The translations under genes were made by a program, and so were the position numbers. This document shows, one piece after another, positions 25,411-59,932 of a DNA stretch of 64,000 bases. Positions within the stretch are counted from its first letter, which is position 1; every line of letters begins with the position of its first letter. The notes below the pieces were generated by a model. The model did not search any database. It was not told the DNA's origin and was given only the letters and a program-made list of their open reading frames with translations. The DNA comes from Holdemania sp. Marseille-P2844 (lineage in GTDB: Bacteria > Bacillota_I > Bacilli_A > Erysipelotrichales > Erysipelotrichaceae), in the NCBI RefSeq assembly GCF_900120005.1, contig NZ_LT635447.1, forward strand, positions 62,001-126,000, read 5' to 3'.

Positions 25411-25440
25411 GCGATTTTCTCCTTTCACCTCTGATTTGAA

Positions 25441-25472
25441 ACAGGGCAGGACCCGTGTTGGACCCTGCCTTG
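25441..25472 (-). terminator. Intercistronic hairpin
   Basis: Arms GGCAGGGTCC and GGgtCCTGCC form a GC-rich hairpin between the substrate-binding protein and ade. There is no good T run, so it more likely tunes or protects the message than stops it. Confidence 0.5.
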
Positions 25473-25509
25473 TCGTTGCTTCCTGATCCTTCAGGAAAAT
25501 TTCCAGATG

Positions 25510-26568: not shown

Positions 26569-26737
26569 TTTCTTTCCTCCTTAAAATGTCAGCTAGTTCT
26601 TCTATGGAAATTCCAAACGGAAGTCCGGCGGATTTTCCAGATGTTTCTCAGAAAACCCGACGGTTTCTGCTCGGAAGCAGAGTGCGTCATCTTTCCTGCA
26701 GCCTCATCCCGCAGGATGGCCGCGGCCGGAAATTAGA
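26569..26737 (-). other. Hairpin-rich intercistronic gap
   Basis: Between the ATPase and binding-protein genes, the minus-strand transcript can form several short hairpins (for example TCTGCT/AGCAGA and CATCC/GGATG). They may stabilise or process the message so that the binding protein is made in excess. No gene is seen. Confidence 0.4.
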
Positions 26738-27775: not shown

Positions 27776-27785
27776 GCTTTTCCTC

Positions 27786-28568: not shown

Positions 28569-29398
28569 CAGTTTTCACCCCGCTTATCCAGCCGGCCGGC
28601 AATGGCGTTGAGTCCCTTCATGACGATCAGCGTCGTCACGATCATGACTAACGCCACCACGCTCGCGCCGGTCCAGTCGTTGAGCGTCATCGCCCGCTGA
28701 TAGATCAGCGTCGACAGCAGCATGTTTTTCGGACCGCCTAATAACTGCGGCGTCGTGTACGCCGTCATCGCGCCGGTAAACACCAGCACCGCCCCGGTGA
28801 TGATGCCCGGGATCGACATTGGCAGAATAACCTTGACAAAGGAGAGCAGCCGGCTGGCGCCCAGACTTTCCGCCGCTTCCATCATATCATTGTCAATGTT
28901 TTCCATGACGCCGACCAGCGTGATGATCATTAGCGGCAGAAACAGATAGATCGTACCAACGAGAACGGAGAATTCGGTGTACAGCATCGACAGCGGCTGA
29001 TCGACCAGATGCAGCGCGGAAAGAATCTGATTTACGATGCCGTTCTTGCCGAGAATGTTGATCCAGGCAAAGGCTCGGATGACCGAGTTTGTCAGCATCG
29101 GAAACAGTGCGACGGACATCAGAATACCGCGCCATTTCTTTGAGACCCGGGAAATAAAATACGCCGTCGGAATCCCCAGAATCATGCAGACCAGCGTGCA
29201 GACTAACGCAATCCGCAGCGTCCGGACAAAGATTTTGATGTAATAAGGATCCTGGAAAAAGGCGATGTAGCGGCTTAACGTCACCGCTCCGCCTTCAAAT
29301 ACGGTCGGTAACAGAACCGCCAGCAGCGGAAGGATCAGCACGACCACAAGCAGGATCGTGATCGGCGCGATCAGCAGGATTGTTGACTGTTTTTTCAT
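28568..29398 (-). CDS. ABC transporter permease (PotB-like)
   Basis: 276 residues, six membrane segments, EAA loop MMEAAESLGASRLLSFVKVI. First gene of the transporter operon; ATG follows AGGAAGGGG and lies 24 bases after the T run of the riboswitch terminator, so the leader directly decides its transcription. Confidence 0.94.
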   Translation of the reverse strand: MKKQSTILLIAPITILLVVVLILPLLAVLLPTVFEGGAVTLSRYIAFFQDPYYIKIFVRTLRIALVCTLVCMILGIPTAYFISRVSKKWRGILMSVALFPMLTNSVIRAFAWINILGKNGIVNQILSALHLVDQPLSMLYTEFSVLVGTIYLFLPLMIITLVGVMENIDNDMMEAAESLGASRLLSFVKVILPMSIPGIITGAVLVFTGAMTAYTTPQLLGGPKNMLLSTLIYQRAMTLNDWTGASVVALVMIVTTLIVMKGLNAIAGRLDKRGEN

Positions 29399-29421: not shown

Positions 29422-29547
29422 TAAAAAACTTCTACCGGCACGATAGAAGTCACAGACAGAGTTGTCCCTTGAATTCTATCGTAGTCCAATATATAGCCAT
29501 TGGGTAGAAACTCTTCACGCTGTTCCCTGTGAAGATATACGATAAGA
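29422..29547 (-). ncRNA. Purine riboswitch, guanine-class core, with terminator
   Basis: On the minus strand, P1 (TATCGTA with TACGATA) encloses P2 (TCTTCAC/GTGAAGA), the invariant J2/3 GTTTCTACC, P3 (CCAAT/ATTGG) and J3/1 GACTAC. The specificity base (position 74 in the family) is C, at plus coordinate 29484, meaning a guanine/hypoxanthine pocket. A terminator follows: ACTTCTA and TAGAAGT arms, then T6. The 3' strand of P1 (ACGATAGAA) is exactly complementary to TTCTATCGT in the terminator's 5' part, so ligand binding should free the terminator and turn the operon off. L2 and L3 differ in length and sequence from the usual kissing loops. Confidence 0.87.
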
Positions 29548-29554
29548 CTCAATG

Positions 29555-29582
29555 ATTATAGCATAGAAATGTTTTTTGCAAA
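29555..29582 (-). promoter_or_regulatory. Promoter of the riboswitch operon
   Basis: Extended -10 TGCTATAAT (TATAAT at 29560-29555) with a weak TTTGCA 16 bases upstream. It lies just before the aptamer. Confidence 0.7.
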
Positions 29583-29756: not shown

Positions 29757-30443
29757 TTATGGATCGATCACCGTCGGGGTTCGTCCGATGCCGACGACTT
29801 CCGCCGCAATTCTTCTCCAGGTCTGACAGCCGGCGATACCGTCTGCGCCCAAACCGTTATCGCGCTGATACTGAATCAGCGCTGTGCGGGTCGCGTTGCC
29901 GAATTTGCCATCCAGCCAGCGCGTCGAATAGCCCAGGGCATTCAGTGCGTCCTGCAGCACCAGCGTGTAGCAGCCCACCGAACCTTCACGCAGCGTCGGG
30001 AATCCCGATGTGCCGCCGCAGGCGCCGCGGGCATAACGGCGGTCGAAGTGAACCCAGGTCGGGGTCATCGACAGGGGTTCGACATAACCCCAGACGCCGA
30101 GGTTGTTCGCTGTCCGCCAGATCTGATTACGCTGACTTTGCGACAGCCGCTGGCCGACGTCAAAGGAGACGCCGACGTAATGCTGTGACTGCAGGCCGTG
30201 GCCGCCTTCCCAGATCCGCTTAAACGCGTAACCGACCGGAATCGCCGCGCCGTAGGTCCGCCGGGTGGCGTTCCAGGCTTCCATCGCCGTCGTCGTCGTC
30301 CAGAAAACCGTGGACCGGCTGGAACCACGGAATTCCCGGACTAATAACGTCCTGCCGTAGGAATACGGCATCGGGTCGTTTTCTGCCCGCCATTCCGTAT
30401 AAATCTGATTGGTGTCCGGATCATAAACCATAATTTTTGCCAT
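29757..30443 (-). CDS. M15-like peptidase with peptidoglycan-binding domain
   Basis: 228 residues. The N-terminal two-thirds carry the Zn motif of D,D-carboxypeptidase/endolysin-type M15 enzymes: LQSQHYVGVSFDVGQ (His and Asp) and PTWVHFDRR (His). The C-terminus is a PG_binding_1 repeat (LQDALNALGYSTRWLDGKFG, RTALIQYQRDNGLGADGIAG). No signal peptide is visible, so export may be non-classical, or it is phage- or lysis-derived. ATG follows GGAGGTGA. A tight terminator lies between it and the upstream gene, so it is transcribed alone. Confidence 0.82.
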   Translation of the reverse strand: MAKIMVYDPDTNQIYTEWRAENDPMPYSYGRTLLVREFRGSSRSTVFWTTTTAMEAWNATRRTYGAAIPVGYAFKRIWEGGHGLQSQHYVGVSFDVGQRLSQSQRNQIWRTANNLGVWGYVEPLSMTPTWVHFDRRYARGACGGTSGFPTLREGSVGCYTLVLQDALNALGYSTRWLDGKFGNATRTALIQYQRDNGLGADGIAGCQTWRRIAAEVVGIGRTPTVIDP

Positions 30444-30479
30444 TGATCTCACCTCCTCATTCATGTCTATGCAGGAAAA

Positions 30480-36210: not shown

Positions 36211-37857
36211 TTACTTTTCGATCGTGCAATAGCCGTAGAATGGCGTTGCTCCGACATGCGTCGTGTTTTTAACGTAGGTTTTCTTTAACATCGGATCGCC
36301 GTAATTGAACAGCGGAATGAGGTAAACCTGTTCCTGAACCAGATAATGTTCGATATCATGGAGCGCTTCCATATATTCTGTATAATCGACAATGTAGGTA
36401 GCGGCGTCCATCATCTTGTCATATTCCGGATCATCCACCGCCGGTGTCTGCTGCTGCGTCGTTGTCCACAACGTCAGAAACTGAGATGGATCGTCACTGG
36501 CTGTATAACCATAACGGGCAATTTCAAAGTCGCCGTTGAAGATCTGATTGTAATAAACGCCGGATTCAACAACTTCCAAATCACATTCAACGCCGATCGC
36601 TTTCCACATTCCCTGCAGAACGGCCGCAACGTCAGCATGCAGCGTCGTCTGGGAATACTTATAAGTAATCTTCAGCGGATTTGTTTCGTCATAACCTGCT
36701 TCTTTCAGCAGTCTCCTGGCTTCTTCCGGGTCGTATTGCAGGAATTTTTCTTTCTCGTCGCTTTCCGTACGGAAATCCTTTTCAGCCCCTTTCAAACCGT
36801 TTGGCACATAGCCGTCTAACGGAACGTAATAGGAAGGGTCGCCAACCGCGGTAACCATCGCTTCTTTATCAATCGCTAAAGCCAGTGCGCGGCGGACACG
36901 GACATCTTTCATCCATTCCGGGCCTGTCGGACCGCTGTTGATAACCAGGAAATAGTTGGACGGACTTTCAACTTTCCACAATTCTTCTTTATTTTCGTAA
37001 GTTAACGGCAAAGAAGAATTGACGCGCAGCGCGATGTCGATATCATTGTTCTTAAACGCCAGCGCCTGAGCATCCATATCTGTCATGACCTGGAATGTAA
37101 TCTTATCCAGCGTGATCTCATCAGCACGGTAATAGTTTTCATTCTTTGTAACGACAATCTTGTCGTTTTCATTGCATTCTTCCAGAATGTACGGACCGAC
37201 GCTCGGATAGCCCGGCGCGAAGGACCAGGTGGAATCATGCTGCGGCGCGAAATCAGCGCGGACCGGCATAAAGGCATATGAGTTCAGCAGGGCTTTGAAG
37301 AAAGCGCATGGTTTAGTCAGCTGGAATACCAGCGTCGTATCGTCAACGGCCTGAACCCCCGGAATCTGCAAGGTTTCCGCATCCTGAGTATCGTCGCTTT
37401 CATAAGCGGCGGCACCGTCCAGATAAGTGACCAGATTGTAAATCGACCAGGCGTTTTCAGCGCCATAGGTCAGCGCGCGGACAATTCCATAACGGAAATG
37501 CTCGGCGGTTAATGGAACCCCGTCGCTCCATTGAATACCTTCTTTCAATTTAACGGTGTAGGTCAGACCATCTTCGCTGATATCACAGCTTTCCGCTAAA
37601 TCCTCAATCAGGTTATTGTCCTCGTCCTTGGTGAACAAAGTACTGTAAGTATGCTGCATAACATACCCGTTGATGAGTTCGGAATTCAACGCCGGATCCA
37701 ACGTTGTAAACTGCGCGCCGACCGCTACGGTCAGCTCGTTGGTTTCTGCCGGATCGTTGGTCGGCGTCTGACCGGAACCTGCGGTTCCCTCTTCCTTTGT
37801 ACTGCAGCCCGCAAGCAGAAGCATACAGGAACAAACTAAGGCTATCCACTTTCTCAT
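36211..37857 (-). CDS. oppA: Oligopeptide-binding lipoprotein (first copy)
   Basis: 548 residues. Lipobox LLLAGCSTK, then an SBP_bac_5 binding protein (ITYKYSQTTLHADVAAVLQG, FLTLWTTTQQQ). The start is the ATG after GGGGGA, not an earlier one 24 codons upstream inside the promoter. About 60% similar by eye to the copy at 38164, with many identical blocks. It has its own promoter and twin palindromic sites, while the other copy has a T-box. Confidence 0.95.
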   Translation of the reverse strand: MRKWIALVCSCMLLLAGCSTKEEGTAGSGQTPTNDPAETNELTVAVGAQFTTLDPALNSELINGYVMQHTYSTLFTKDEDNNLIEDLAESCDISEDGLTYTVKLKEGIQWSDGVPLTAEHFRYGIVRALTYGAENAWSIYNLVTYLDGAAAYESDDTQDAETLQIPGVQAVDDTTLVFQLTKPCAFFKALLNSYAFMPVRADFAPQHDSTWSFAPGYPSVGPYILEECNENDKIVVTKNENYYRADEITLDKITFQVMTDMDAQALAFKNNDIDIALRVNSSLPLTYENKEELWKVESPSNYFLVINSGPTGPEWMKDVRVRRALALAIDKEAMVTAVGDPSYYVPLDGYVPNGLKGAEKDFRTESDEKEKFLQYDPEEARRLLKEAGYDETNPLKITYKYSQTTLHADVAAVLQGMWKAIGVECDLEVVESGVYYNQIFNGDFEIARYGYTASDDPSQFLTLWTTTQQQTPAVDDPEYDKMMDAATYIVDYTEYMEALHDIEHYLVQEQVYLIPLFNYGDPMLKKTYVKNTTHVGATPFYGYCTIEK

Positions 37858-37892
37858 ATAGAATCCCCCATTCTCTTTCTGGATTGTTTTTA

Positions 37893-37955
37893 ATTTTACA
37901 CCCGTGAGAATAAATGTCAACACTTTCATGAAATATTTTGTGAATTTTCATGAAA
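37893..37955 (-). promoter_or_regulatory. oppA promoter with twin palindromes
   Basis: TTGACA (37920-37915) and TAAAAT (37898-37893) are 16 bases apart. Directly upstream are two copies of the perfect palindrome TTTCATGAAA (37924-37933 and 37946-37955), 22 bases centre to centre, i.e. on one face of the helix. The arrangement suggests a cooperative regulator. The second copy with flanks (AATTTTCATGAAAATA) resembles a CodY box with one extra central base. Confidence 0.75.
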
Positions 37956-38163: not shown

Positions 38164-39810
38164 TTACTCAGCCGCAGCTTCGACAGTTACGCTGCCGAAA
38201 TACGGATTCAATCCCCACATCTGAACGCCCTTGACGTTTGTTTTTAACAGACACGGAGTGTTGTAGTTAAACAGCGGAATAACGTAAACCATTTCCTGAA
38301 CCAGATAATGCTCAGCGGCATGCAGGGCATTCATGTATTCCGTGTGATCGACCAGATAGCCCGCTTCATCGACCAGCTTGTCATACGTCGGATCGTCAAC
38401 GGCCGCAACGACCTGCTGACCAGTTGTCCACAAACTCAGATACTGCGACGGATCATCGCCCGCGCTGTAGCCATAACGGCAGATCTCAAAGTCGCCGTTA
38501 TCAATCTGATCATAGAAGACGCCGGATTCAACAACGGTCAGTTCGCAATCAATGCCCACGTTCTGCCACATCTGCTGCAGAATCTGCGCAACATCGGCAT
38601 GCAGCTGGGTTTGCGAATATTTGTAGGTTAACTTCAGCGGATTGCTTTCATCATAACCAGCTTTGGCTAACAGGGCTTTCGCTTCTTCCGGATCATATTC
38701 CAGATATTTTTCCTTTGCGTCTTCTTCCAGACGGAAATCTCCTTCTGCTCCGGCTAAGCCTTCCGGAATATAGCCGTTAAGAACTTTGTAATATTCAGAA
38801 CTGCCGACAGCGCTGACCAGCGCGTCTTTATCAATCGCCAGGGCTAATGCGCGGCGAACATCGACATTCTGCATTGTTTCCGGACCGGTAGAGCCGGAAT
38901 TGATCGCCAGGAAGTAGTTGGAAACATCTGGTTTATTCCAGATTTCGCCCGGATTGGAATAAGTTTCTGCCAATGTCGGAGTGATAGAAAGGGCAATATC
39001 AATCTCATTGTTCTTGAACGCCAGCGCCTGCGCGTCGGTATCGCTCATGACCAGGAATGTGATCTGCGGCATTGTTACGGAATCCGCATCGTAGTATTTA
39101 TCGTTTTTCACAACGATTGCTTTTTCATTTTCATTGCATTCTTTCAAAACATAAGCACCGACTGATGGATAACCCGGTTTCAATGCCCATAAGGAGTCAT
39201 GCTGGGTTGCAAAATCAGCGCGCAGCGGCTTCCACACGTTATTGGTCAGCATCTGCGGGAACCAGGCGCACGGTTTCTTCAAGTTCAGAACCAGCGTCTG
39301 ATCATCCGGCGTTTCAATGCCTTCGATCGTGTCGTTTTCCGGATCAAAGGTGTCGTCGGCCAGAATTTCTTCCGCGCCTTTTAAATAAGAGCTCGGGTAG
39401 TAGACTGCCCATGAATTCTCCGCTCCGTAAGTCAGATTGCGCAGAATGGCATATTCAAAATCTTTTGACGACAGCGGCTGATCGTCGCTCCAGACAACGC
39501 CTTCCTTTAATTTGAAGGTGTACGTCAGACCGTCGTCGGAAACGGTATAACTGTCGCACAAATCGTTGACGATGTTGTTTTCCTCATCTTGACGGAACAG
39601 ACCTGCCGTCGTATGACGCAGAACGTAGTTGTTGACTGTTTCAGTACTCAAACCTGGGTCCAAGGTCGTAATCTGGCCGCCGATTGCAACTTTCAGATTC
39701 TCCGGATCGGCGCCTGTGCTTGTCGTTGCCGAACCGCCGCCATTGCCGTTGGAGCATGCGCTGACCAGCATCAGCATAGCCGCACAGAGAATAATTCCTA
39801 GCTTCTTCAT
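38164..39810 (-). CDS. Oligopeptide-binding lipoprotein (second copy, T-box controlled)
   Basis: 548 residues, a paralog of OppA: lipobox MLVSACSNG, blocks TYKYSQTQLHADVAQILQQ and GYSAGDDPSQYLSLWTTGQQ. It is a single-gene transcript between a T-box leader and a terminator, so a shortage of one charged tRNA should raise only this binding protein. It probably delivers peptides rich in that amino acid to the shared OppBCDF permease (inference). Confidence 0.94.
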   Translation of the reverse strand: MKKLGIILCAAMLMLVSACSNGNGGGSATTSTGADPENLKVAIGGQITTLDPGLSTETVNNYVLRHTTAGLFRQDEENNIVNDLCDSYTVSDDGLTYTFKLKEGVVWSDDQPLSSKDFEYAILRNLTYGAENSWAVYYPSSYLKGAEEILADDTFDPENDTIEGIETPDDQTLVLNLKKPCAWFPQMLTNNVWKPLRADFATQHDSLWALKPGYPSVGAYVLKECNENEKAIVVKNDKYYDADSVTMPQITFLVMSDTDAQALAFKNNEIDIALSITPTLAETYSNPGEIWNKPDVSNYFLAINSGSTGPETMQNVDVRRALALAIDKDALVSAVGSSEYYKVLNGYIPEGLAGAEGDFRLEEDAKEKYLEYDPEEAKALLAKAGYDESNPLKLTYKYSQTQLHADVAQILQQMWQNVGIDCELTVVESGVFYDQIDNGDFEICRYGYSAGDDPSQYLSLWTTGQQVVAAVDDPTYDKLVDEAGYLVDHTEYMNALHAAEHYLVQEMVYVIPLFNYNTPCLLKTNVKGVQMWGLNPYFGSVTVEAAAE

Positions 39811-39906: not shown

Positions 39907-40136
39907 AAAAAAATCGTTTCCAGATGTCTAGAAACGATTGATCGCGGTACCATTCTAGTTGCCGGCTTCAACAGCCAACCCCCTCAATCCTTAACGCGGA
40001 AACACGTGAATTCCTATTTTATTCAGAATTCCATCTCCCAGATGCGCTTCATCATGCGTTAGCCGCGAACCTTCCACCCTCGTTCGCTCGCTTTCGGCCA
40101 CATTCATGACTACTCTTCTGTTCATTGATTTTGATT
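39907..40136 (-). ncRNA. T-box leader
   Basis: The minus-strand leader has the T-box sequence AGAATGGTACCGCG (39956-39943; family consensus AGGGTGGNACCGCG) and then a terminator with arms AATCGTTTC and GAAACGATT and T7 (39939-39907). Upstream is a stem I region with AGTA and GATGAA (S-turn elements). The triplet after it reads ATC at 40043-40041, suggesting an isoleucine specifier, but the assignment is tentative. The bulge TGGT implies a tRNA with discriminator A. Uncharged tRNA should favour antitermination and expression. Confidence 0.9.
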
Positions 40137-40171: not shown

Positions 40172-40688
40172 GCAAAAAACAAAACATTTTCATTTTCTGT
40201 AAACTTTTTCATTTTTATTCATAATGAATAGACAGATATCAACGACAACGGATTTCTGCCTTTTTATTCCGAGTTTTACCATTTTGAAACATTGCTGATC
40301 CCATCTCCGCTTTTACTTCTTACCCTGATTTTTCCTGCTTAGGAAGAAAAAAGTATGAAATATTTTTTCATAAATTGTAAATTCCCAAAACCATTTCATT
40401 TCCGTAATCTTGTTTCCTCATTCTTTTATTCAGACAAGACGATTGAGATCTCCTTTTCATTTTATTCCAGCGGCTCAGTTAAATGCAAAACCGCAATCAG
40501 ATTGTATCTTTTTCTCAGCGCCCCGTGCGGATTTTTCACTGGTATCCAGGCAGGGTGTTTCCCCGCTTTAAACGGCAGAACTGTTAAAATCCGCTGAGTT
40601 TCTGAATCTTCTTTTTGTTCTCAAGATTATTTTGGAACTTCTTGTCGAAGCCGGAATACACTGATACTGAACAAGGGAGGATTAGCCT
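40172..40688. other. Gap between the T-box promoter and the Cys-rich gene
   Basis: No secure gene. A minus-strand frame at 40462-40620 reads like protein (QRILTVLPFKAGKHPAWIPV) but has no good start and is closed by stops, so it may be a remnant. A plus-strand 80-codon frame at 40355 overlaps it without family resemblance. I find no clear promoter for the Cys-rich gene. Confidence 0.4.
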
Positions 40689-41237
40689 ATGGAACAACTC
40701 AACATTAAAGTGCATCAGCGAAAGGAAAGAACACAGCCGCGGATTCTATTCGACGACAACGGCTGGGATACGCCGGAAGATCAGATCCAGGCAGAAAACG
40801 AAGTCGTATATCATTGTTGCGAAGACGACTGCGACGATGGCTGCCGATGCGACAATGGCAACTGCGGAGGGAATCAGGGCTGCGGCTGCGGAAATCAGGG
40901 TTGCGGCTGCGGCTGCGGATGTGATTGTGATAAGGGATGCGGCGACGATGATAACGGCGGTGGGGATGATTGTGACTGCGACTGTGACTGTGATTGCGAT
41001 TGTGACTGTGATTGCGACTGTGATTGTGGTAATGACTGCGATTGCGGTAACGACTGTGATTGTGGCGACGGCGGAGATTCCTGCCCGGATGATTGTGATT
41101 CCACCTGCCGTCCAAGAACGATTATCTTTCAAAAACGCAAAGAGTGTATTGAACGGACACAGCCGACCGGATGTAATGACGAAACCGGATCATATCGCAA
41201 ATGTTCCGTCACCATTAAAATTATTAAACGCTATTAA
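40689..41237 (+). CDS. Asp-Cys repeat protein, unknown
   Basis: 182 residues with GGGAGG before the ATG. Residues 1-40 are ordinary and charged. Residues 42-140 are almost only Cys, Asp, Gly and Asn, including CGCGNQGCGCGCGCDCD and ten consecutive Asp-Cys dipeptides, then two GNDCDC units. The last 40 residues are basic and end KIIKRY. I count 34 Cys (19%). Codons alternate TGT/TGC and GAC/GAT, so it is a protein-level repeat rather than a pure DNA repeat. No signal, membrane segment or family is recognised. A metal-binding, redox-crosslinked or coat-type role is conceivable but unproven. Convergent with the pilus operon. Confidence 0.85.
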   Translation: MEQLNIKVHQRKERTQPRILFDDNGWDTPEDQIQAENEVVYHCCEDDCDDGCRCDNGNCGGNQGCGCGNQGCGCGCGCDCDKGCGDDDNGGGDDCDCDCDCDCDCDCDCDCDCGNDCDCGNDCDCGDGGDSCPDDCDSTCRPRTIIFQKRKECIERTQPTGCNDETGSYRKCSVTIKIIKRY

Positions 41238-41263
41238 AAGCGAGCTGGGCTCGCTTTTAATTC
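41233..41263. terminator. Bidirectional terminator
   Basis: Arms AAAAGCGAGC and GCTCGCTTTT with loop TGG. Shared by the Cys-rich gene and the convergent pilus operon. Confidence 0.9.
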
Positions 41264-41290: not shown

Positions 41291-44200
41291 TCATTGTTCT
41301 TCAGGCAGCGATCTTTCCGCCTCCGCTCCATTCAGATTAGCAGCGGCCAGCGCAGTTTTTCCCGCCAGCTGAGCAAACCAGTCGAGATACGGCCGCCACA
41401 ACGGCGTATCAAATGTCTGCGCATCCTGCGGATTCGCAAATTTAATTCGATACTGATCTTTCATCCGGCTGTCAATAACCGCGGTTCGCAGCATTTTAAA
41501 CGAAAATTCATTGACCGCCATTTTCTCACCCTGCAGCGTATAAAACAAATCGTCTGGTTCCTTCAGCGGATCGGTATACCATCGCCGGCCGGCTTCCAGA
41601 ATCTGATCGTCAGCGTCCAGCTTCTCGAAAACGGGTTCGTCGTTGATCCAGCCTTCATACTGGCTTGCCCACATCATCGGCAATACCAGACTGTCGCCCT
41701 GTCTTTCAAACGGAATTTCGTAATGTGCGCCCACCGCGTATTTTTCGCGTACCGGCTCTGCGCCCTGATCAAAAATTGCCTTTGCTTTCGCATTGATCAG
41801 CGTGGTATCAGCTTTGCAGGCCCAGTTTACAACCGCGGCGCATTCATTGACATAATGATATTGAATCCCCGCTTCGATCCCTTCCCCCGCAAAATAGTCT
41901 GACTGGGGCAAAGGACTGATCAATGTCAACGTTTCCGCGTAATTCTTCTGTTCCTCCTTCTGATTTATGGTGAACATGACCGCTCCGTTAAACTCAAGCT
42001 GTTCTTCCCCGGTTTGTTGAAACTGACGGGATATTGTGCCGATGTTAACACGAAGTTCATTATCGTCCGGGTCTTTGTCCAGTTCATAATCAACCCGGGC
42101 CCGCATGATCGCCGTTTCATCGTTCAGCATAAACGGAATTCTGATCGTCTGTTCCGGCAGCGCCGGCAGCTGTTGTTCAAAAATCACCTCATCCTGCAGC
42201 CAGACGGTCACCGTCTGCTGCTTTTGGGGATTGCAGCCATCGCAAAGAGCATGCAGCATTGCGTATTCAGTTTCATCTGGATGCGCTGCGGGAACAAACA
42301 ACTGACCGGCCGCCGAGTCGCCTTCGTTAAGCTGAAAGTAACCGGAAATGGAGGTTCCCTCATTGCCTGCCCGATCGACGAGTTCCACGACAATTTTGCA
42401 TTTTCCCGCCATTGTCAGTTCGATTGTCTGCGGAGTATCGTGATCAAACCAGGACGAAGTTTTAATATAGGATTGACCTTCGTCATAGGTGAGGCGGTAA
42501 CGCCAGCGCTTAACACCGCTCAAATCGTCCTGCGGCGTAATCAAAACAGCTATTTTATCTTCCTCGGTTTCAGCTTCTGGCGGATCAAACAAGGCCCATG
42601 GGGATTGCTTGTCAATATTGCCGACCGGAATAGCGACCGTCGTACTATTTCCCGCATGATCTTTCGAAGATACGGAATAAGTACCATTTTCACTGACGGT
42701 AAACTGAGCGGCAGGCCCATCTCCAGTTTTCTGCGGAACGCTCAGGTGCTTCACTCCGCTCAGCTCGTCCTTCGCCTGAACCTGAACCAAAACATCTGTA
42801 TTCGTCCAGTCCTGCGGCGTCAGCGTCCAGCTGATCGCAGGGCCGTGCAGATCCGCGCGCCATTCCAATTCTGCCAGCCCGGCGCAGTTATCCGCATAAT
42901 CGCAGGCGGTCAGCGTCAGCGTCTGACGTCCTTCTTTGTCGTTGGCCAACGGCGTCGACCAGATTTCGTCCTGCTCAGTCAATGCAATTTCACCTTGCGA
43001 AGTTGCGGCTTGTACCGTTTGAACACCGCTGTTAAACTCCGCGGGCCGATCTTCGACTTTACCGGTATGGACTGTAAGTCGGGCCGTTCCATTAACCCAG
43101 TTTGAATATACCTGATCCCCATCCGCAAGAATCGTTCCCGCTTCGTCTTCAATCCAGCTGCGCTCACTCTGGGGCGGCAGGCGATCAATTTTGTACAGAT
43201 CCGAAAGGGTTACACTGCGGTTGCCCGCAAAGTCTTCAACTTCCACTTTGATCCTGTTCAGACCATTTTCTCCCAGCGTCAGCGTCGCTGGCTGCGCCTG
43301 CAGCCATTCGCTGCAGCGACCGTAATGCAGACCGCCGTCAACGGATAAAGCCCAGCGCCAGCGTTTTACGCCGGAATGTTCATCATAAGGGGAAACCTCA
43401 ACCGCCACCGGCTGGTTATGCCACGTTTCATCACCCTGGGGATCCAAGTGTGCGGATGGCGCGGTATTGTCAATCAGAAAAACGTTTGACGTCACAGTCG
43501 CCCTGTTTCCAGCTTCATCCTGTAACTGCGCTTCGATCTGCCACTGGCCGGACTGATCCAGCGAATAGAAAAACGCAGAACCATCCCCGTTTCCCAAATC
43601 CTGCCGCTGTTGGGTAAGAACATTCAGCAGCGTGTACCGGGCATCCGCAATCCAGTGTTCTTGCGGATCATACAGATTTTTATAGGTAACGACGGTGACA
43701 TCGTATGAATTCAGCCGGGCATTGGTACTGTGTCCTTCATACTTGTAACACGGCGTGCTGCGGCTGCCGGTTGTATGCTGACACCAGCCGGCGTCATCGC
43801 TCGACCAGATCTGATGCGGCAAATTTCCCTGCTGAGCCCAATATACCGGATTCGCTGCATACTGAACGCCCCAGCCCGGACTGGTTTCAATCCAGGGCCA
43901 GGCTTTTCCTTTTGAGCCGTATGAGTAATAGCGGTAACGAAAACCGCCGCCCTGTTCTTCAGTATACCAGCCACTGATCTGGCTGGAGTAGCTGTCGAGC
44001 CCTTTTACGACCTCCGGATTGGCGTAGGCTGGAATGGATCCCCCGCGGCCATAGTCGTAGAAATCAGATTGATTCTGAATTTCCGCTTCCTGCCGTGCGA
44101 ACAATGAGGTCGACGGAGTAAAAATACCGGCACTCTCTTTTTTCCATATCCCCTGTGTACCATCAGGCTCGAAAGTTCCGCCGTCCAGACAAACCGTGAC

Positions 44201-44851
44201 CTGACGAATATCTGTATTTTCAATTTTTTCCGGCGTCCAGCGAACATGTTCCTGCACGGCGTAATCCGGAATCTGAAAATAGTTTAACTCATAGTGACAC
44301 TGCGGCCCGCTGTCGTTAAACATGACATAAAGATTGCTTACCTCGCGGTCTTCCAGATTTAAGGCAATCCGCTTCTCTTTCGTGCTCAGCACCTCTTCGC
44401 CAGCCGTCAGCTCCGCCCGGCCGTCAACCCAGTTCATTTCTGCGTTGATCCAGACTGTCTTTTCCATGACTTCGCCCCTGCCGTTCCATCCCTGAACCTC
44501 AAGCTGCAAGTCGCCGATCTTTATTGGCCGCCCGAAATGGGCTGAGATAAAATTGGGATCGTCCGGATTTTCATTTCCGCTGACAGTCAGCGTTTTTAAT
44601 CCGGCCAGCACTTCCCAGCTTGTTCGCTTGGGATAGGAAAAAGTCCCCAGCGCGTTAAACTGCGCCGTAATTTGTTGGGAATTGATCGTCATCTGTTGAT
44701 CGGCAGTAAATTCGCTGTCCCAGAAATCCTGATGGGCGACCCAATCCTTTACGGAATAAAATAACATGACTGTACAATCCGCCCGGATGGCTGCCATACT
44801 TAAAACCAGATTGATCAGCATCAGCAAGCACAAACATCTCCGCGTTTTCAA
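41291..44851 (-). CDS. Large secreted Ig-like protein of the Tad locus
   Basis: 1186 residues with a signal peptide (CLCLLMLINLVLSMAAIRA). The start is a TTG overlapping the upstream stop (TTGA), 5 bases after GGGTGA; the next ATG would lose the signal. The body holds an N-terminal jelly-roll-like region and at least four Ig-like repeats of the type VFLIDNTAPSAHLDP with YDEHSGVKRWRWALS, again in DKQSPWALFDPP with DDLSGVKRWRYRLTY. No cell-wall sorting signal or C-terminal membrane anchor is seen. As last gene of the pilus operon it may be a tip adhesin or a secreted substrate (inference). Confidence 0.85.
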   Translation of the reverse strand: MKTRRCLCLLMLINLVLSMAAIRADCTVMLFYSVKDWVAHQDFWDSEFTADQQMTINSQQITAQFNALGTFSYPKRTSWEVLAGLKTLTVSGNENPDDPNFISAHFGRPIKIGDLQLEVQGWNGRGEVMEKTVWINAEMNWVDGRAELTAGEEVLSTKEKRIALNLEDREVSNLYVMFNDSGPQCHYELNYFQIPDYAVQEHVRWTPEKIENTDIRQVTVCLDGGTFEPDGTQGIWKKESAGIFTPSTSLFARQEAEIQNQSDFYDYGRGGSIPAYANPEVVKGLDSYSSQISGWYTEEQGGGFRYRYYSYGSKGKAWPWIETSPGWGVQYAANPVYWAQQGNLPHQIWSSDDAGWCQHTTGSRSTPCYKYEGHSTNARLNSYDVTVVTYKNLYDPQEHWIADARYTLLNVLTQQRQDLGNGDGSAFFYSLDQSGQWQIEAQLQDEAGNRATVTSNVFLIDNTAPSAHLDPQGDETWHNQPVAVEVSPYDEHSGVKRWRWALSVDGGLHYGRCSEWLQAQPATLTLGENGLNRIKVEVEDFAGNRSVTLSDLYKIDRLPPQSERSWIEDEAGTILADGDQVYSNWVNGTARLTVHTGKVEDRPAEFNSGVQTVQAATSQGEIALTEQDEIWSTPLANDKEGRQTLTLTACDYADNCAGLAELEWRADLHGPAISWTLTPQDWTNTDVLVQVQAKDELSGVKHLSVPQKTGDGPAAQFTVSENGTYSVSSKDHAGNSTTVAIPVGNIDKQSPWALFDPPEAETEEDKIAVLITPQDDLSGVKRWRYRLTYDEGQSYIKTSSWFDHDTPQTIELTMAGKCKIVVELVDRAGNEGTSISGYFQLNEGDSAAGQLFVPAAHPDETEYAMLHALCDGCNPQKQQTVTVWLQDEVIFEQQLPALPEQTIRIPFMLNDETAIMRARVDYELDKDPDDNELRVNIGTISRQFQQTGEEQLEFNGAVMFTINQKEEQKNYAETLTLISPLPQSDYFAGEGIEAGIQYHYVNECAAVVNWACKADTTLINAKAKAIFDQGAEPVREKYAVGAHYEIPFERQGDSLVLPMMWASQYEGWINDEPVFEKLDADDQILEAGRRWYTDPLKEPDDLFYTLQGEKMAVNEFSFKMLRTAVIDSRMKDQYRIKFANPQDAQTFDTPLWRPYLDWFAQLAGKTALAAANLNGAEAERSLPEEQ

Positions 44852-45192
44852 TAGATCACCCGCTTCGTTGTTTTTGACGCCTTCAGCTCGGTTTTCAAAC
44901 CGATCAGGGCGATTTCAATCTGAAGCTTCCCCGTTACTTTGTAGGTACACCGCTCATTCTGCGGCTGTCTTTCCGTTTCCACCGTCACTTCCGGAACCCG
45001 CTGCTTCCAAACTTCAATTTCCTGTTTGGCCGGTTCTGTCAGACCCTCGTGGACTTCAATGATTTCCACCATTGAGCTTGTCAGCTCATTGATTGTTTTA
45101 TAGCCGACGGCAAAAGCCAGCATCTGCGGAATTAACAACACGCAGAATGTGAACACAAATAAGCCGCCGAAAATTTCCACGCCCTTACCCAT
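44848..45192 (-). CDS. TadE-like pseudopilin (DUF4320-like)
   Basis: 114 residues: short basic-polar N-terminus, one membrane helix (IFGGLFVFTFCVLLIPQMLAF), then an outside domain. Size, topology and position after the TadC gene match DUF4320/TadE-like minor pilins of Gram-positive Tad loci. ATG follows AGGAGG. It overlaps the next gene by 4 bases. Confidence 0.75.
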   Translation of the reverse strand: MGKGVEIFGGLFVFTFCVLLIPQMLAFAVGYKTINELTSSMVEIIEVHEGLTEPAKQEIEVWKQRVPEVTVETERQPQNERCTYKVTGKLQIEIALIGLKTELKASKTTKRVIY

Positions 45193-45210
45193 ATTTCTCC
45201 TCCTTTTTGT

Positions 45211-45978
45211 TTAGAAAAACCGGATCGAAGCGATCATATTCAAAATCACAAAGCCCAGCCACAGAAACAGAACGTAAGGAATCATATTCTGTTTTTCAAT
45301 CCGGCGCTGCAGCTCAATGCGGCGTGCGCCCTGGATCTTTTCATTCGCGATTTTAGAAAACGCCGTTAAGATCAGCTCACGATTCTCGGAAGTGATCGAC
45401 AGACTGAACAACGTCCGCATAATCCGTCCGATATCGTCAATTTGAGAAAACCGCTGGGCAAACTTCAAATAGGGCTTCAGATCAGATCCCTGGGTATGGA
45501 TTTCCCGCGCCAAAACCCGCAGATCTTCCTGAAAGATCGCCGGCGCTTCACGGATTGATTTTTCAATCGCGTTGGGCACCGGATTGTTTTGAATCAGGAT
45601 CGCCAGATGATTCAAATAGTAAGGAAATTCTTTTTTAGCCTGTCCCAGCAGTTGGATATAGATCATCTTTAACCGCAGGCGATCGCCAAGGTAGACGGCG
45701 GTGGCCGCCAGAACGGCGCAGATCAGTGAAAATGTATCCAGCGTGCCTTTCTTGATCGCCAGCATGAACAATCCGGCGGCAAACGCGTACAATATCCGTT
45801 TAAGCATGCGGGCGCGCGGTTGTCCCTTTCCTGTTTTTTCACAATAAAATGCGTAGTCGGATTCCATCCAGCGGTCTAATAACGCCGCTGTTTCCGCAGC
45901 GAACGGACCCGCTTGATAGGCCCACAGGCCCCACAAGCTCAGTGCACTCAGCTGCATCAGCGCCAACATCAATCCCAT
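45211..45978 (-). CDS. TadC-like pilus platform protein
   Basis: 255 residues from the ATG after AGAGGTGA; the longer frame starts inside tadB. Membrane segments lie at the N-terminus, around residues 85-120 and at the C-terminus (PYVLFLWLGFVILNMIASIRF). The GspF/T2SSF domain lies between. With TadB it forms the inner-membrane platform driven by the TadA ATPase. Confidence 0.83.
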   Translation of the reverse strand: MGLMLALMQLSALSLWGLWAYQAGPFAAETAALLDRWMESDYAFYCEKTGKGQPRARMLKRILYAFAAGLFMLAIKKGTLDTFSLICAVLAATAVYLGDRLRLKMIYIQLLGQAKKEFPYYLNHLAILIQNNPVPNAIEKSIREAPAIFQEDLRVLAREIHTQGSDLKPYLKFAQRFSQIDDIGRIMRTLFSLSITSENRELILTAFSKIANEKIQGARRIELQRRIEKQNMIPYVLFLWLGFVILNMIASIRFF

Positions 45979-45988
45979 AAACTCACCT

Positions 45989-46870
45989 CTATTCCAGCTT
46001 GTCGTTGCGGCTGCACCAGAATTCATACAGAAACAGCGTCGCAGCGTTCAGCAGGTAAAACAGAAAAATGCAGAAGCGAAAGGACTCCGTCGCCAGATTG
46101 ACATACATGGAGGAATGAAACATCTTTTTCATGACCAGCGCCGCCAGCAGATTCAAAATCATCATAAAGTAAAATACGGAACGTCCGGCAGCTTTCTTCT
46201 GCCGGTAATCGTTGATCAGCAGTTCACTTTCCTCGGTGTTGTCAAACAGATAATCGACAAGCTGTTCGTTGCGTCCGCCTTCAATCTTTTTGCCTTTTAA
46301 CAATAAATGAAGATTACGGACCTGCGAATATTCGTACTTCTTTTCCAAATCATCCAGCGCCTGGGCAAAATCCGAATTGGCTTCGATCTGCCGCACGCAA
46401 AGCTCAAGATCCTTTTTTAACGGCGCTTCCACCAACGCCGCGCAGTCTTTCAGAATCCGCAGACTGTTTTTATCTTCCCGGATGTAAAGAATCGCGGTCG
46501 ATACATACGTCAACATTTCCTTTTCTTCTTTTTCCTGGGCTAAGCGCTTCAGATTCATATAGAAAAATGAAGGCAGAAAGAAGATCGCCAGGGACGCGAT
46601 GATCGCCGAATAGACCCAGTGCTCTGTCGTGGCGTAGCAGAGCAAGCCGCACAGAGTTCCTAAAATTGCCGCCTGACTTGCATATTGACCAGCCGGATAA
46701 TGTCCGCCCAGGATTTCAATCCGGCGGATTAATCCAAAATAGGAAATATCGTTCAGCTTCCGCATCACCCGGCTGTCCAAAACAGCCTGCCAGTCATGGC
46801 AGTCCAGTTTGAATGCGAGGGCACTGTAACAAAAGCCCAGCGTCAGAAACAGAATTTTCATTCCGCGCAT
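45989..46870 (-). CDS. TadB-like pilus platform protein
   Basis: 293 residues with membrane segments near the N-terminus, at about 75-115 (AAILGTLCGLLCYATTE) and at the C-terminus (SFRFCIFLFYLLNAATLF); the cytoplasmic middle is helical. The start is the ATG after GGGAGAA, overlapping the tadA stop by 13 bases. The 35-codon upstream extension lies wholly inside tadA and is ignored. Partner of TadC. Confidence 0.83.
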   Translation of the reverse strand: MRGMKILFLTLGFCYSALAFKLDCHDWQAVLDSRVMRKLNDISYFGLIRRIEILGGHYPAGQYASQAAILGTLCGLLCYATTEHWVYSAIIASLAIFFLPSFFYMNLKRLAQEKEEKEMLTYVSTAILYIREDKNSLRILKDCAALVEAPLKKDLELCVRQIEANSDFAQALDDLEKKYEYSQVRNLHLLLKGKKIEGGRNEQLVDYLFDNTEESELLINDYRQKKAAGRSVFYFMMILNLLAALVMKKMFHSSMYVNLATESFRFCIFLFYLLNAATLFLYEFWCSRNDKLE

Positions 46871-47913
46871 GATTTCTTCTCCCTGCTTTCCGTCATTCCC
46901 AGACGGCGCTGCAATTCGGGTGAACAGCGGTTCAGCCGGCCGGTGCGGGCCCGGTAGAGAACATGCTGGGTACATTGCCGGGTTTTCGGGTCATAGAGAT
47001 ACTCGATGATTTCGTCGACGCTGCGGACAATTCCGTCCTTACCCGTTTCCTTTTTCAGATGAACGACCAGATCGACCAGGGAATACACACGCATTTCAAG
47101 CGAGCTCATCGACTCCGCGTCGTTTTTCATCATCTGCTTGATGCGGGTGGTAACGGTATCCGCTCCGCGGGTATGCATCGTTGTCAGCACGGTATGTCCG
47201 GTCGACATCGCGTCCAGCAAATCGTCGACTTCTTTTCCGCGGGCTTCCTGAAGCAGAATCCAGTTGACGTTCTGACGCAGCGCCATCGCGATGATCGCTG
47301 AATAATCAAAGCCCGGACGCACCCGGAACGCGCTGCATGAAGCTTCAGGATGGATTTCCTTAATATTGAATTCCAGCGAATCTTCAATCGTCACAATTCT
47401 CTGATCGACGGGAATATAGGTCGCCAGAAATTTTAAGAATTCAGTTTTGCCGCTGCCGGTTTCACCGACAAAAATGATGTTGCACCGATAGCGGATACAG
47501 CGGATCAGAAACTGCAGTGCCGAACGGGTGATAAAGCCGCTTTCCACTAAATAGTCCTCGCTCAGAATACTGGCGCGGGATACCTTGCGCAGCGCCAACG
47601 TCACGCCGCTGACCGAAAGTTCCTCATGAATCGCGCTGACGCGCAAATCGAGATCGGCGTCATGAATATCGCCTTCCAGACAGGGGCTGCCGGGGTTGAA
47701 TTCTTTTTCCATCTTATTGGCAACCTGATTGGCAATGCGGTTGATCTCCGTTTCCTGAATCGATCGGTCCATCAGACGGTAATGCCCATGATGATTGGAA
47801 GTCACCCAGATTTCGTTGTGATTCAGACAGTTGATATCGCGGATATCTTCCTGAATTAGAAGATCGCTGAGCACACCGAAGTCAATTTTGTCAAAGATCC
47901 GCGCATCATTCAT
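46858..47913 (-). CDS. TadA/CpaF-type pilus ATPase
   Basis: 351 residues of the VirB11/type II secretion ATPase superfamily: Walker A IIFVGETGSGKTEFLK, Asp box IVTIEDSLEF, Walker B-like NWILLQEARGKEVDDLL and His box GHTVLTTMHTRGADTV. It drives pilus assembly. The Walker B shows LLQEARG where most relatives have the pattern LxGExRG (Gly replaced by Gln). It starts in an 8-base overlap with the cpaB-like gene. Confidence 0.92.
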   Translation of the reverse strand: MNDARIFDKIDFGVLSDLLIQEDIRDINCLNHNEIWVTSNHHGHYRLMDRSIQETEINRIANQVANKMEKEFNPGSPCLEGDIHDADLDLRVSAIHEELSVSGVTLALRKVSRASILSEDYLVESGFITRSALQFLIRCIRYRCNIIFVGETGSGKTEFLKFLATYIPVDQRIVTIEDSLEFNIKEIHPEASCSAFRVRPGFDYSAIIAMALRQNVNWILLQEARGKEVDDLLDAMSTGHTVLTTMHTRGADTVTTRIKQMMKNDAESMSSLEMRVYSLVDLVVHLKKETGKDGIVRSVDEIIEYLYDPKTRQCTQHVLYRARTGRLNRCSPELQRRLGMTESREKKSCAE

Positions 47914-48706
47914 CCTCCCTCACCTCTTTGACCAGACTGACGTCAATCGTTTTCTGATAAAGCAGTTCACGCATTTTCGCAATGTCATAGAAATCCTCAG
48001 CCTGACTTTCCGGATTCAGCGATCCATAGGTTACCATCGGCAGCACCGTGCCGAAAAACTTTGCCCGCTGGACCAGATCCGCGTCTTCGTACGAGAGGGC
48101 GACAACGATGACGCTGGTGGCCTTATCCGACTGGGCGTCGATATTCTTACCCGTACTGTCGCGAACCGCGATCACCCGCGCCTGCGATACCAGCTGCCCA
48201 TACAGCACGCGTTTTTCCGATTCGTCTGCCTGTGTCGCGTAGCCCTGAAAATAAAGATCAATCTGATGTCCCGGCAGGATGGAATTGGCGTAAGATGTCT
48301 TGATGTCCGCGTCGATCGTCACCGCCGCTTCATTCTCCAGCAGCGGAAACGCCGACACATCATGAAGCTCATCTTTCGCTATCAACAGTTCTTCATAGAA
48401 CAAGGCGCCTTCCGCAACCGAATTATAGGTGTCGACTGCCTGACCGATTAATTGTTCCGGATCTTTTTCAACGCCTTCCAGCACTACCGGCCGCGGAACC
48501 TCGATCAACTGAATATCCTCCCGTTGAATCACCGTGCCGGATTTCAGATATCGCGCCGCAACGGGAACCAAAATCGGATCAATGGCCGCCTGTACGGTCG
48601 TTTCATACACTTTATAACCGCATAAGCCCACCGCCAACGTCAGAATCAGCGTTAAAAGCAGCCGGTAGCGCTGAAGAAAAGAAGGGGAAAGCTTTATTTT
48701 TTTCAT
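47906..48706 (-). CDS. CpaB/RcpC-like pilus assembly protein
   Basis: 266 residues with one N-terminal membrane helix (LLLTLILTLAVGLCGYKV) and a SAF domain right after it (VPVAARYLKSGTVIQREDIQ), then the RcpC/CpaB extracytoplasmic region (NSILPGHQIDLYFQGYAT). In Tad systems it aids pilus assembly outside the membrane. Stop and start overlap both neighbours by a few bases. Confidence 0.87.
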   Translation of the reverse strand: MKKIKLSPSFLQRYRLLLTLILTLAVGLCGYKVYETTVQAAIDPILVPVAARYLKSGTVIQREDIQLIEVPRPVVLEGVEKDPEQLIGQAVDTYNSVAEGALFYEELLIAKDELHDVSAFPLLENEAAVTIDADIKTSYANSILPGHQIDLYFQGYATQADESEKRVLYGQLVSQARVIAVRDSTGKNIDAQSDKATSVIVVALSYEDADLVQRAKFFGTVLPMVTYGSLNPESQAEDFYDIAKMRELLYQKTIDVSLVKEVREDE

Positions 48707-49652: not shown

Positions 49653-49726
49653 GCGGGTGTAGTTCAATGGCAGAACACAACCTTCCCAAGGTTGCTACGG
49701 GAGTTCGATTCTCCTCACCCGCTCCA
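49653..49726 (+). tRNA. tRNA-Gly (CCC)
   Basis: Acceptor arms GCGGGTG and CACCCGC, D arm with AGTTCAATGGCAGAAC, anticodon loop TTCCCAA (CCC at 49685-49687), T arm GTTCGATT, encoded CCA end. Confidence 0.95.
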
Positions 49727-49734
49727 CAAGTTGT

Positions 49735-49808
49735 GCAGATGTAGTTCAATGGTAGAACGCGACCTTGCCAAGGTCGACACGGCGGTTCAATTCCGCTCAT
49801 CTGCTCCA
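49735..49808 (+). tRNA. tRNA-Gly (GCC)
   Basis: Acceptor arms GCAGATG and CATCTGC, anticodon loop TTGCCAA (GCC at 49767-49769), T arm GTTCAATT, encoded CCA. Its 3' end faces the integrase gene and is the probable phage attachment site. Confidence 0.95.
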
Positions 49809-49817
49809 TTACGATTT

Positions 49818-49843
49818 AAGCCCTTAATTTAAAGGGCTTTTTT
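49818..49843 (+). terminator. Terminator after the tRNA-Gly pair
   Basis: Arms AAGCCCTT and AAGGGCTT with T6. Confidence 0.85.
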
Positions 49844-49938
49844 AATGTTCATACATAAAAAGACGAAAAAAAGACGAAAATTTGACTGTTTGATTAAACG
49901 AAGATCGTTGTGTATTATAGAATCAGGGGGGTGAATTT

Positions 49939-51036
49939 ATGGCTGTAAAGAACATTGGGAAAAGTAACTGGGAAGCTCGCGGAAAATATAAAATGCCTGA
50001 TGGAACATATAAAGACTATCGACGAAAAGGATTCAAAACAAAGGCGTCTGCCGAAGAGTTTGAGAGAAATTTAAAGGATCAAGGGAGGTTAGGCGTTGCC
50101 GTTGCAAAATCTCAAATAACGTTCAGTGCGCTCACTGAAATGTATTTAAAAAGTAAAAGAGGTAAAAAGAAGACAAGCTCTATCATTGATGATGAAACTG
50201 TATTTAAAAAAATAAACACAGATATTGGAGATGAAAAAATAATAGGATTAAACCGGATTAAACTAGAAAGATATTTTTTATCACTAGATGAAAAAGGCTA
50301 TTCCATCAATTATATAGATAAAATCTATTTCTGTATCAAGAAGGTCCTGACCTATGCAAAAAAAGAACACCTGGTTTCTTATAATGTTATGGATGACATA
50401 GAAAGAGTTAAAAGGTTAGATGAAGTTAAAGAGGAAATAAAATTCTGGACTCCAAACGATTTAAAGCAATTCTTAACCGTCGTCAATAACGCTACTCTTA
50501 AAGATTTCTATGAATTCTTGTATTGGACAGGATTGCGGCGCGGAGAAGCGCTTGGCATTACCTGGGAAAAAGTTAACTTTGAAGAACGTACGCTGCGAAT
50601 TAACCAGCAGATCAGCGTGAAGCTTGGCGAGGATGTTATTACCTCTCCAAAAACAAAAAACAGCATTCGTACTCTTAAAATGCCAGAAGTCATTTATAAT
50701 ATGATGAAACGAAGGTACGAAGAAGCGAGAATTCTAAACGGATTTAATGAGAAATTCTTTGTCTTTGGGAATGACGTTCCTTTGAAAAGAAATTACATCC
50801 AGAAAAATCTTGATAAGTACATTATCAAATCCGGAGTTAAAACAAGAATCACCATACATGGATTTCGGCACAGCTGCGCATCCTATCTTATTAATAGCGG
50901 ATGCAATATCCTTGCTGTAGCAAAATATCTCGGCGATACCGTTGATACATTAACCAGCACTTACGCTCACCTATTTACAAATACCCAAGATGAGTTAATC
51001 GCAGTGATTGATCAAAATAATAAAAAAGAGGACTAA
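49939..51036 (+). CDS. int: Tyrosine-type site-specific integrase
   Basis: 365 residues. An N-terminal arm-binding AP2-like domain (SNWEARGKYKMPDGTYKDYR), a SAM-like core-binding domain, then the catalytic domain with Arg200 in WTGLRRGEALG, the HGFRHS box (His307, Arg310) and Tyr342 in TSTYAHLF. Start: ATG after GGGGGGTG. It lies 130 bases from tRNA-Gly(GCC), as expected for a phage integrated in the tRNA 3' end. AT-rich compared with the host genes. Confidence 0.95.
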   Translation: MAVKNIGKSNWEARGKYKMPDGTYKDYRRKGFKTKASAEEFERNLKDQGRLGVAVAKSQITFSALTEMYLKSKRGKKKTSSIIDDETVFKKINTDIGDEKIIGLNRIKLERYFLSLDEKGYSINYIDKIYFCIKKVLTYAKKEHLVSYNVMDDIERVKRLDEVKEEIKFWTPNDLKQFLTVVNNATLKDFYEFLYWTGLRRGEALGITWEKVNFEERTLRINQQISVKLGEDVITSPKTKNSIRTLKMPEVIYNMMKRRYEEARILNGFNEKFFVFGNDVPLKRNYIQKNLDKYIIKSGVKTRITIHGFRHSCASYLINSGCNILAVAKYLGDTVDTLTSTYAHLFTNTQDELIAVIDQNNKKED

Positions 51037-51058
51037 CCGTTATAGGAAAGTCCTCTTT
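51022..51058. terminator. Bidirectional terminator
   Basis: Arms GAGGACT (51028-51034) and AGTCCTC (51049-51055) with flanking A6 and T3. It overlaps the integrase stop and ends the convergent late phage genes. Confidence 0.75.
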
Positions 51059-51061
51059 GCT

Positions 51062-51340
51062 TTATTTTTGTTGCAAATGCTCATCCAATCTGTGATGAGC
51101 TGATTTTGTTGATTGCTCTATAATCACGACTTTTTTGCCCAGATCGTTAACCTCATCTTGCAGTTCACTGACGTCAGTTTTCACTCCGGTGATTATGTCC
51201 AGTTTAGCGTTTATCTCACCCCTCCATTCTGCATCTCCGCTGATCTTTTTCTCGCGGCCCGATAACCACCCAGCCAAGCCTACAAAGCAGCCGACAAGGC
51301 TGACCATCAGGCTGATCGCAATCGTTGTCGATCCATCCAT
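51062..51340 (-). CDS. Phage small membrane protein, XhlA-like
   Basis: 92 residues: an N-terminal membrane helix (IAISLMVSLVGCFVGLAGWL) and a coiled-coil tail (VSELQDEVNDLGKKVVIIEQ). The layout resembles XhlA-type lysis accessory proteins. Next to a holin-like gene. Preceded by AGGATT. Confidence 0.7.
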   Translation of the reverse strand: MDGSTTIAISLMVSLVGCFVGLAGWLSGREKKISGDAEWRGEINAKLDIITGVKTDVSELQDEVNDLGKKVVIIEQSTKSAHHRLDEHLQQK

Positions 51341-51342
51341 AG

Positions 51343-51672
51343 TTAATCCTCGTCTTTATGATTGATTTGGCTCAGCGGTTTAAAATAAGACCACTTACCT
51401 TCTACCGCTTTATAAAATACATCAGCACCAATAAAGCCCACATGGCCAACAAGGACAATATAAACGATATCCCAGATGGTCATCGGTGTCATATCGCAAA
51501 GCACGTAACACCAAGCAAAAGCAAATCCGACATTGAGCATCCAGCTGGTCAAAACCAGCTTTGATTTTGTCGGCGCGATCGCTTCCTTGATCTTCTGGAT
51601 CAGCAGCGACGCAAACACGCCGACGATGAGTGCGATTAAGCACATGTAGAGTAATGTTTGAGTATTTGGCAT
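51343..51672 (-). CDS. Phage holin-like protein
   Basis: 109 residues with about three membrane segments (LLYMCLIALIVGVFASLLI, LNVGFAFAWCYVL, WDIVYIVLVGHVGFIGA) and a charged tail. Size, topology and position in the lysis region suggest a holin. ATG follows AAGGAGGG. Confidence 0.7.
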   Translation of the reverse strand: MPNTQTLLYMCLIALIVGVFASLLIQKIKEAIAPTKSKLVLTSWMLNVGFAFAWCYVLCDMTPMTIWDIVYIVLVGHVGFIGADVFYKAVEGKWSYFKPLSQINHKDED

Positions 51673-51711
51673 AATATAGCCCTCCTTCTTATATATGGAA
51701 AAGGAAGAGAA

Positions 51712-59082: not shown

Positions 59083-59095
59083 ACACTACCTCCTG

Positions 59096-59929: not shown

Positions 59930-59932
59930 GAT

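Follow-up and report, generated by a model that had tools for sequence, protein, structure and literature searches.

What kind of gene encodes ten consecutive Asp-Cys dipeptides, is the run itself under selection and what might its product do for the cell? These questions are raised by a coding sequence at 40689..41237 on the plus strand of a window of 64,000 nucleotides, i.e. the whole stretch of DNA analysed here, which originates from the 3.68-Mb genome of the gut bacterium Holdemania sp. Marseille-P2844. Its product comprises 182 amino acids, among them 34 Cys, 35 Asp and 24 Gly, and has no apparent signal peptide. The (Asp-Cys)10 run (residues 94-113; 40968..41027, +) lies within an imperfect 18-bp tandem array and is flanked by GCGC and GNDCDC units. 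Homolog alignments delimit a conserved N-terminal block (residues 1-68; 40689..40892, +; MEQLNIKVHQRKE..GWDTPEDQ..YHCCEDDCDDGCRC) and a conserved C-terminal block (residues 140-182; 41106..41234, +; CRPRTIIFQKRKECIERTQPTGCNDETGSYRKCSVTIKIIKRY), for which a beta hairpin is predicted with low confidence; the peptides TIIFQK and ILFDDDGWDTPEDQ belong to these conserved ends. A ribosome site, GGGAGG (40675..40680, +), is positioned 8 nt 5' of the ATG, an intrinsic terminator with a 13-pair stem and a T tract (41233..41261, +) closes the gene, and both elements are kept across Holdemania. An earlier note, made from the sequence alone, had already described protein size, cysteine count, run, flanking units, ribosome site and terminator, and all of these are confirmed. 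Its statement that the gene sits apart from others holds insofar as the gene forms a unit of its own, yet only 54 nt separate it from the end of its 3' neighbour (41291-44851, minus). The region 41291-48706 (-) harbours Tad/Flp-pilus-type genes (T2SSE ATPase, RcpC/CpaB, TadB/C-like), which adjoin a 1186-aa protein with Ig-like and OmpL47-type repeats in an order common to the Holdemania relatives.

A repetitive centre and the fact that other frames are also open across it are what one would expect of a chance open frame over a microsatellite. The homolog search suggested as a check in the earlier note argues against such a reading, since homologs were found in three genera. They are present in 4/4 Holdemania genomes, each representing one species and including the nearest named relatives of the window (Holdemania filiformis DSM 12042, H. 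massiliensis AP2 and an uncultured Holdemania), and beyond this genus in G033 (genus g31) and in G023, G631, G071 and G098 (genus g21). Two rounds of profile search covered 272 genomes of the family and 315 of the order, and the rest of the order yielded only a few weak matches attributable to chance. Residues invariant in a seven-sequence alignment include G25, P29, C117, C119, K149, E155, D164, E165, K180 and Y182. Compared to H. filiformis, the first 68 codons show a dN of 0.018 and a dS of 0.99, and the last 48 codons a dN of 0.027 and a dS of 0.76. Purifying selection on the ends of the protein is hence strong (dN/dS about 0.02-0.04). Given the homologs in four Holdemania species and two other genera together with the low dN/dS at the ends, 40689-41237 is a real, selected gene. 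With promoter, ribosome site and terminator conserved as well, we rejected the chance-frame explanation, whose probability we regard as negligible.

Does selection also act on the Asp-Cys run? Conservation does not extend to the run, which grows and shrinks from species to species while both terminal blocks persist. The window species and H. filiformis both have 34 Cys residues, H. massiliensis has 25 and the uncultured Holdemania 12; their longest pure alternations are, in this order, DC x10, CDCDCD, CDCDCDCDCD and one DC. In H. filiformis, Cys occupies nearly every second position and Ser, Leu, Asn or Glu replace some of the Asp residues. Distant homologs keep the ends, lack the run and contain only 11-13 Cys. 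Since both length and residues of the run vary by species, the constraint there is on composition, and on sequence at the two ends only. Codon choice had previously been taken as a sign that selection keeps the Asp-Cys sequence. The codons are indeed mixed (GAT/GAC, TGT/TGC) and a centre rich in Cys-x-Cys and Asp is retained; the varied codons show that the run is not a fresh microsatellite. Retention of the exact sequence does not follow, and the repeat length turned out to be very variable when compared among the four Holdemania species (34, 34, 25 and 12 Cys), with conservation limited to the ends on either side. Given the imperfect 18-bp array, the run probably grows through duplication of units.

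Runs of this type are rare. Irrespective of codons, (DC)6 was found in 1/392 genomes sampled from the phylum, the single case being the Cys-rich gene itself, and we know of no Asp-Cys run in CsxA, a Cys-rich spore protein discussed below. A search for (GAYTGY)5 in viral contigs returned 28 stretches, most of them with an open DCDC frame and in unrelated contexts; several of these frames are probably not genes. One viral-contig locus (L077, 3873-4478) contains a frame without relation to the Cys-rich gene, in which a start resembling a signal peptide precedes DCDCDCDCDCDC and many GCDGG units; it encodes an independent Asp-Cys-rich protein that is probably exported.

The assertion that no described family fits this protein was borne out by searches of Pfam, NCBIfam, PHROGs and PDB sequences with the protein and its alignment, none of which gave a meaningful match. 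In Pfam, the protein remained without match at E up to 1, and all homologs together yielded one irrelevant match at E up to 0.1. NCBIfam matches to MSCRAMM Sdr proteins were discarded as weak, low-complexity and far below cut-off. No match was obtained by tblastn against plasmids and phages or with metallothionein family models, and a literature search for Asp-Cys repeats returned nothing relevant. The families of CsxA, ExsY/CotY and CdeC gave neither a Pfam or NCBIfam match above cut-off nor a PDB match to the profile, the separation from CsxA, ExsY and CdeC being based on family models and PDB sequences. As judged from these searches, the protein represents an unnamed lineage-specific family with an unusual Asp-Cys expansion in Holdemania. 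A conserved N-terminus ahead of a hypervariable Cys-rich centre is also reminiscent of the leader and core of a ribosomally synthesised, modified peptide (RiPP) precursor. We rejected this explanation as highly improbable, because both termini are equally conserved and no modifying enzyme, radical SAM protein, peptidase-transporter or immunity gene was recognised in the neighbourhoods read.

First hints on the natural context of the protein came from its promoter region. An AAC (40636..40638, +), resembling a sigmaK-type -35 element, precedes the -10-like element GAATACACTG (40654..40663, +), which is conserved as GAATANNNT 5' of every homolog. Five diverged homologs share the pattern mAC-N15/16-GAATANNNT[AG] at -45 to -53 from the start codon; in dinucleotide shuffles of these five, the pattern occurred with a frequency of 0 to 0.002 per sequence and a looser version with 0.0005 to 0.05. 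Two more homologs carry GAATACACT[AG] (GAATACACTA and GAATACACTG). Of 36 gene starts in the window, the one of the Cys-rich gene was the only one with a pattern of the AC-N15/16-GAATANNNT type, and a sigma-70 scan of its upstream region on the same strand returned no promoter. Upstream of dpaA (dipicolinate-synthase-like) in Holdemania, the same -35 element and spacing are found (AAC-N15-TCATAGAATG; GGAAC-N16-CATAGAATG at dpaA versus GGAAC-N16-AATACACTG at the Cys-rich gene), and a generic form of the promoter pattern precedes 8/10 dpaA genes. In contrast, the sigmaE-type gene spoIVA is preceded by the -10 sequences CATACACT or CATATACT, with an AC box missing at the appropriate distance. Promoters of sigmaE and sigmaK in C. 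difficile have the -10 element in common and differ in the -35 element, which is ATA versus AC (PMC3789822), and the gap of sigmaK promoters in B. subtilis spans 14-16 nucleotides (PMC517825). The difference between the spoIVA promoters and those of dpaA and the Cys-rich gene is the one reported for C. difficile, the spacing agrees with the B. subtilis gap, and at the level of sequence the Cys-rich homologs have a candidate mother-cell sigmaK-like promoter upstream. Two genome-wide patterns were too strict to define a regulon: GAATACACTNNTA matched only the Cys-rich gene and an AGGAG-tied version had no match. In the dpaA and sigK models most family members scored below the curated cut-offs, and the orthologies of both genes therefore rest on best matches, in the case of dpaA also on the conserved promoters.

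A second hint comes from a neighbouring gene. In 5/5 homolog loci outside Holdemania (G033, G023, G631, G071, G098), the direct neighbour of the Cys-rich gene is a divergently oriented gene whose product of about 230-250 aa has a PG_binding_1 domain (the G631 copy is truncated). Its ortholog in the window encodes a 235-aa protein (29757..30464, -), in which the PG_binding_1 domain is combined with M15-peptidase-like motifs; the N-terminal half of the partner protein contains the motifs SQHYAGVAFDVG and WVHFD, which by our reading resemble those of M15 peptidases although Pfam has no match for that half, and its binding domain matches the one of spore cortex-lytic enzymes, among others. The partner ortholog is present in 10/12 SpoIVA-positive and 0/24 SpoIVA-negative genomes of the family (Fisher p = 3e-7, uncorrected for relatedness). 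In Holdemania, it is located about 10 kb from the Cys-rich gene with an opp operon in between. This operon is probably controlled by tRNA charging, as a T-box leader (39927-40134, -; 127 bits) was detected upstream of the oligopeptide-binding genes 38164-39810 and 36211-37929. At the H. massiliensis locus (L009), a branched-chain-aminotransferase-like gene (3484-4551), absent from the window, is inserted between opp operon and Cys-rich gene. A borderline purine riboswitch (29462-29562, -; 37.5 bits at a gathering threshold of 37) lies upstream of the genes 22382-29398, which are ABC transporter and deaminase/amidohydrolase-like.

The divergent arrangement could mean that the Cys-rich protein takes part in sporulation without a role in any shell, for instance as a regulator or inhibitor acting with the adjacent PG-binding hydrolase in cortex or germination. 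GAATACA[CT]T[AG] upstream of both divergent genes in G071 and G098, i.e. in two of the five loci, would fit as well. However, G009, G013, G027 and G030 have the partner without a recognisable Cys-rich neighbour, and a thiol-dense low-complexity centre would be typical of structural proteins rather than of inhibitors; we thus regard such a function as improbable.

The distribution of the family also points towards sporulation. SpoIVA was found in 6/6 homolog-bearing genomes tested (G631, G071 and G098 were outside this test), and none of the 24 SpoIVA-negative genomes of the family encodes a Cys-rich homolog (Fisher p = 5e-4 by genome and 0.015 by genus). In this comparison, the homologs were restricted to genomes with spore-formation genes, with three genera constituting a small phylogenetic sample for the distribution of the family. 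Erysipelotrichia have been reported to lack spoIIIA homologs, yet some of them form spores (PMC3749518). In the genome that contains the window, sigK, which lies outside the window, is split into two pieces on one strand, 21 kb apart (C14:148917-149240 and C14:127582-127938), which overlap by 4 nt when placed on the intact sigK of H. massiliensis; the match is uninterrupted in the other three Holdemania. A 638-codon large-serine-recombinase-like frame adjoins the 3' half, an arrangement similar to the skin element of C. difficile (PMC5025042). The insert could be an element excised during development, or a mobile element that inserted recently; it contains, by our reading, relaxase-like and IS-like frames and may therefore be the latter rather than an established developmental switch.

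But, what would a sporulating cell gain from a protein of this composition? Based on promoter type, partner gene and SpoIVA-confined distribution, which together make up the link to sporulation, we suggest with a probability of roughly 0.6 that it serves as a structural component of the spore envelope (coat or exosporium-like layer) under the control of sigmaK. Expression from the sigmaK-type promoter would place its synthesis in the mother cell late in sporulation, and with no apparent signal peptide it would remain in the mother-cell cytoplasm. Both conserved terminal blocks, short segments partly predicted to form beta strands, may then dock to the forespore surface or polymerise there, and the fast-evolving Cys/Asp/Gly tract between them would act as a flexible, strongly acidic and thiol-dense linker. 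Disulfide cross-links of this thiol-rich centre could finally render the layer insoluble, perhaps following a transient uptake of metal. AlphaFold2, applied to seven sequences, gave no usable fold (pLDDT of 42 for the Cys-rich protein) and placed C-terminal strands at 144-156 and 169-181 with a pLDDT of about 60; given the poor structure prediction, we only infer the assembly. Spore location and disulfide cross-linking are inferred too. Disulfide cross-linking into a coat was already one of two ideas voiced in the earlier note, and it is the one favoured by the sigmaK-type promoter, the partner confined to sporulation and the restriction to SpoIVA-positive genomes. Several observations speak against a role in the envelope: the number of cysteines varies from 34 to 11, whereas a fixed cross-link geometry, if important, would be expected to keep it constant, the -10 element of the Cys-rich gene starts with A instead of the C of the sigmaK consensus, the partner is distant in Holdemania, and H. 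massiliensis was described as non-spore-forming (PMC4062643).

The other idea, dense metal binding, would turn the protein into a metallothionein-like sink or store of the spore or mother cell, in which the Asp-Cys tract chelates Zn, Cu, Fe or Cd and disulfides are secondary. The 34 Cys and 35 Asp within 182 aa, the CxC spacing, which is typical of thiolate metal sites, and a cytosolic protein without apparent signal peptide would all be in line with this, and loss of the run in some relatives would fit a tunable capacity. Like metallothioneins, the protein is small and very rich in Cys; unlike them, it has an acidic run with alternating Asp, conserved non-Cys ends and a sporulation context. 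Moreover, no metal transporter or regulator was seen beside the gene in the neighbourhoods examined, its conserved neighbour is a peptidoglycan-binding protein, the promoter is of a sporulation type and distant homologs keep the ends with merely 11-13 Cys. We thus consider a primary function in metal storage rather unlikely. Both ideas would merge if the (Asp-Cys)n tract were a new spore-shell material, loaded with metal in the reducing mother cell via carboxylates and thiolates in alternation and, upon mother-cell lysis, turned by oxidation into a disulfide network, with run length, set by expansion of the 18-bp repeat, tuning shell density or metal content by species; this extension is speculative and we deem it unlikely.

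A structural role in the spore envelope would have precedents. In Bacillus and Clostridium, disulfide-linked spore layers are built by unrelated Cys-rich proteins such as ExsY, CotY and CsxA, and the same was proposed as a general strategy for the many Cys-rich proteins found in other spore-forming bacteria (PMC7333573). CsxA of the basal exosporium layer of Clostridium sporogenes/botulinum (PMC7333573) is likewise Cys-rich (25 Cys), non-exported and lineage-specific, and its shell is disulfide-linked; however, it has no sequence match to the Holdemania protein and csxA is part of a zapA/U32 peptidase/collagen-like cluster, whereas the Holdemania-type gene pairs with a PG-binding gene. CdeC, CdeM and CdeA of the Clostridioides difficile exosporium multimerise at the spore surface (PMC7677010), and cdeC is among the sigK targets (PMC5025042); the common feature is the Cys-richness, but no family match is shared, and the DUF1540 domain of CdeA is unmatched in the Holdemania protein. 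Similarly, ExsY/CotY of the Bacillus cereus group are Cys-rich and under mother-cell control and self-assemble into a disulfide-linked layer, but show no sequence or Pfam match. By analogy, the Holdemania protein probably works like these known shell proteins without belonging to their families. It would then be an independent case of the repeated recruitment of unrelated Cys-rich proteins to disulfide-linked spore shells, the novelty being an unusual and evolvable Asp-Cys repeat. To our knowledge, hardly any spore coat proteins are known from the class Erysipelotrichia, and the conserved gene with its sigmaK-type promoter provides a concrete marker for tests of spore formation and outer layers in Holdemania.

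Further downstream in the window, in the region 49653-62317, two tRNA-Gly genes precede a tyrosine-type integrase-like gene and a set of phage-like genes, one of which encodes a 2456-aa protein; the region is probably an element integrated at tRNA-Gly.
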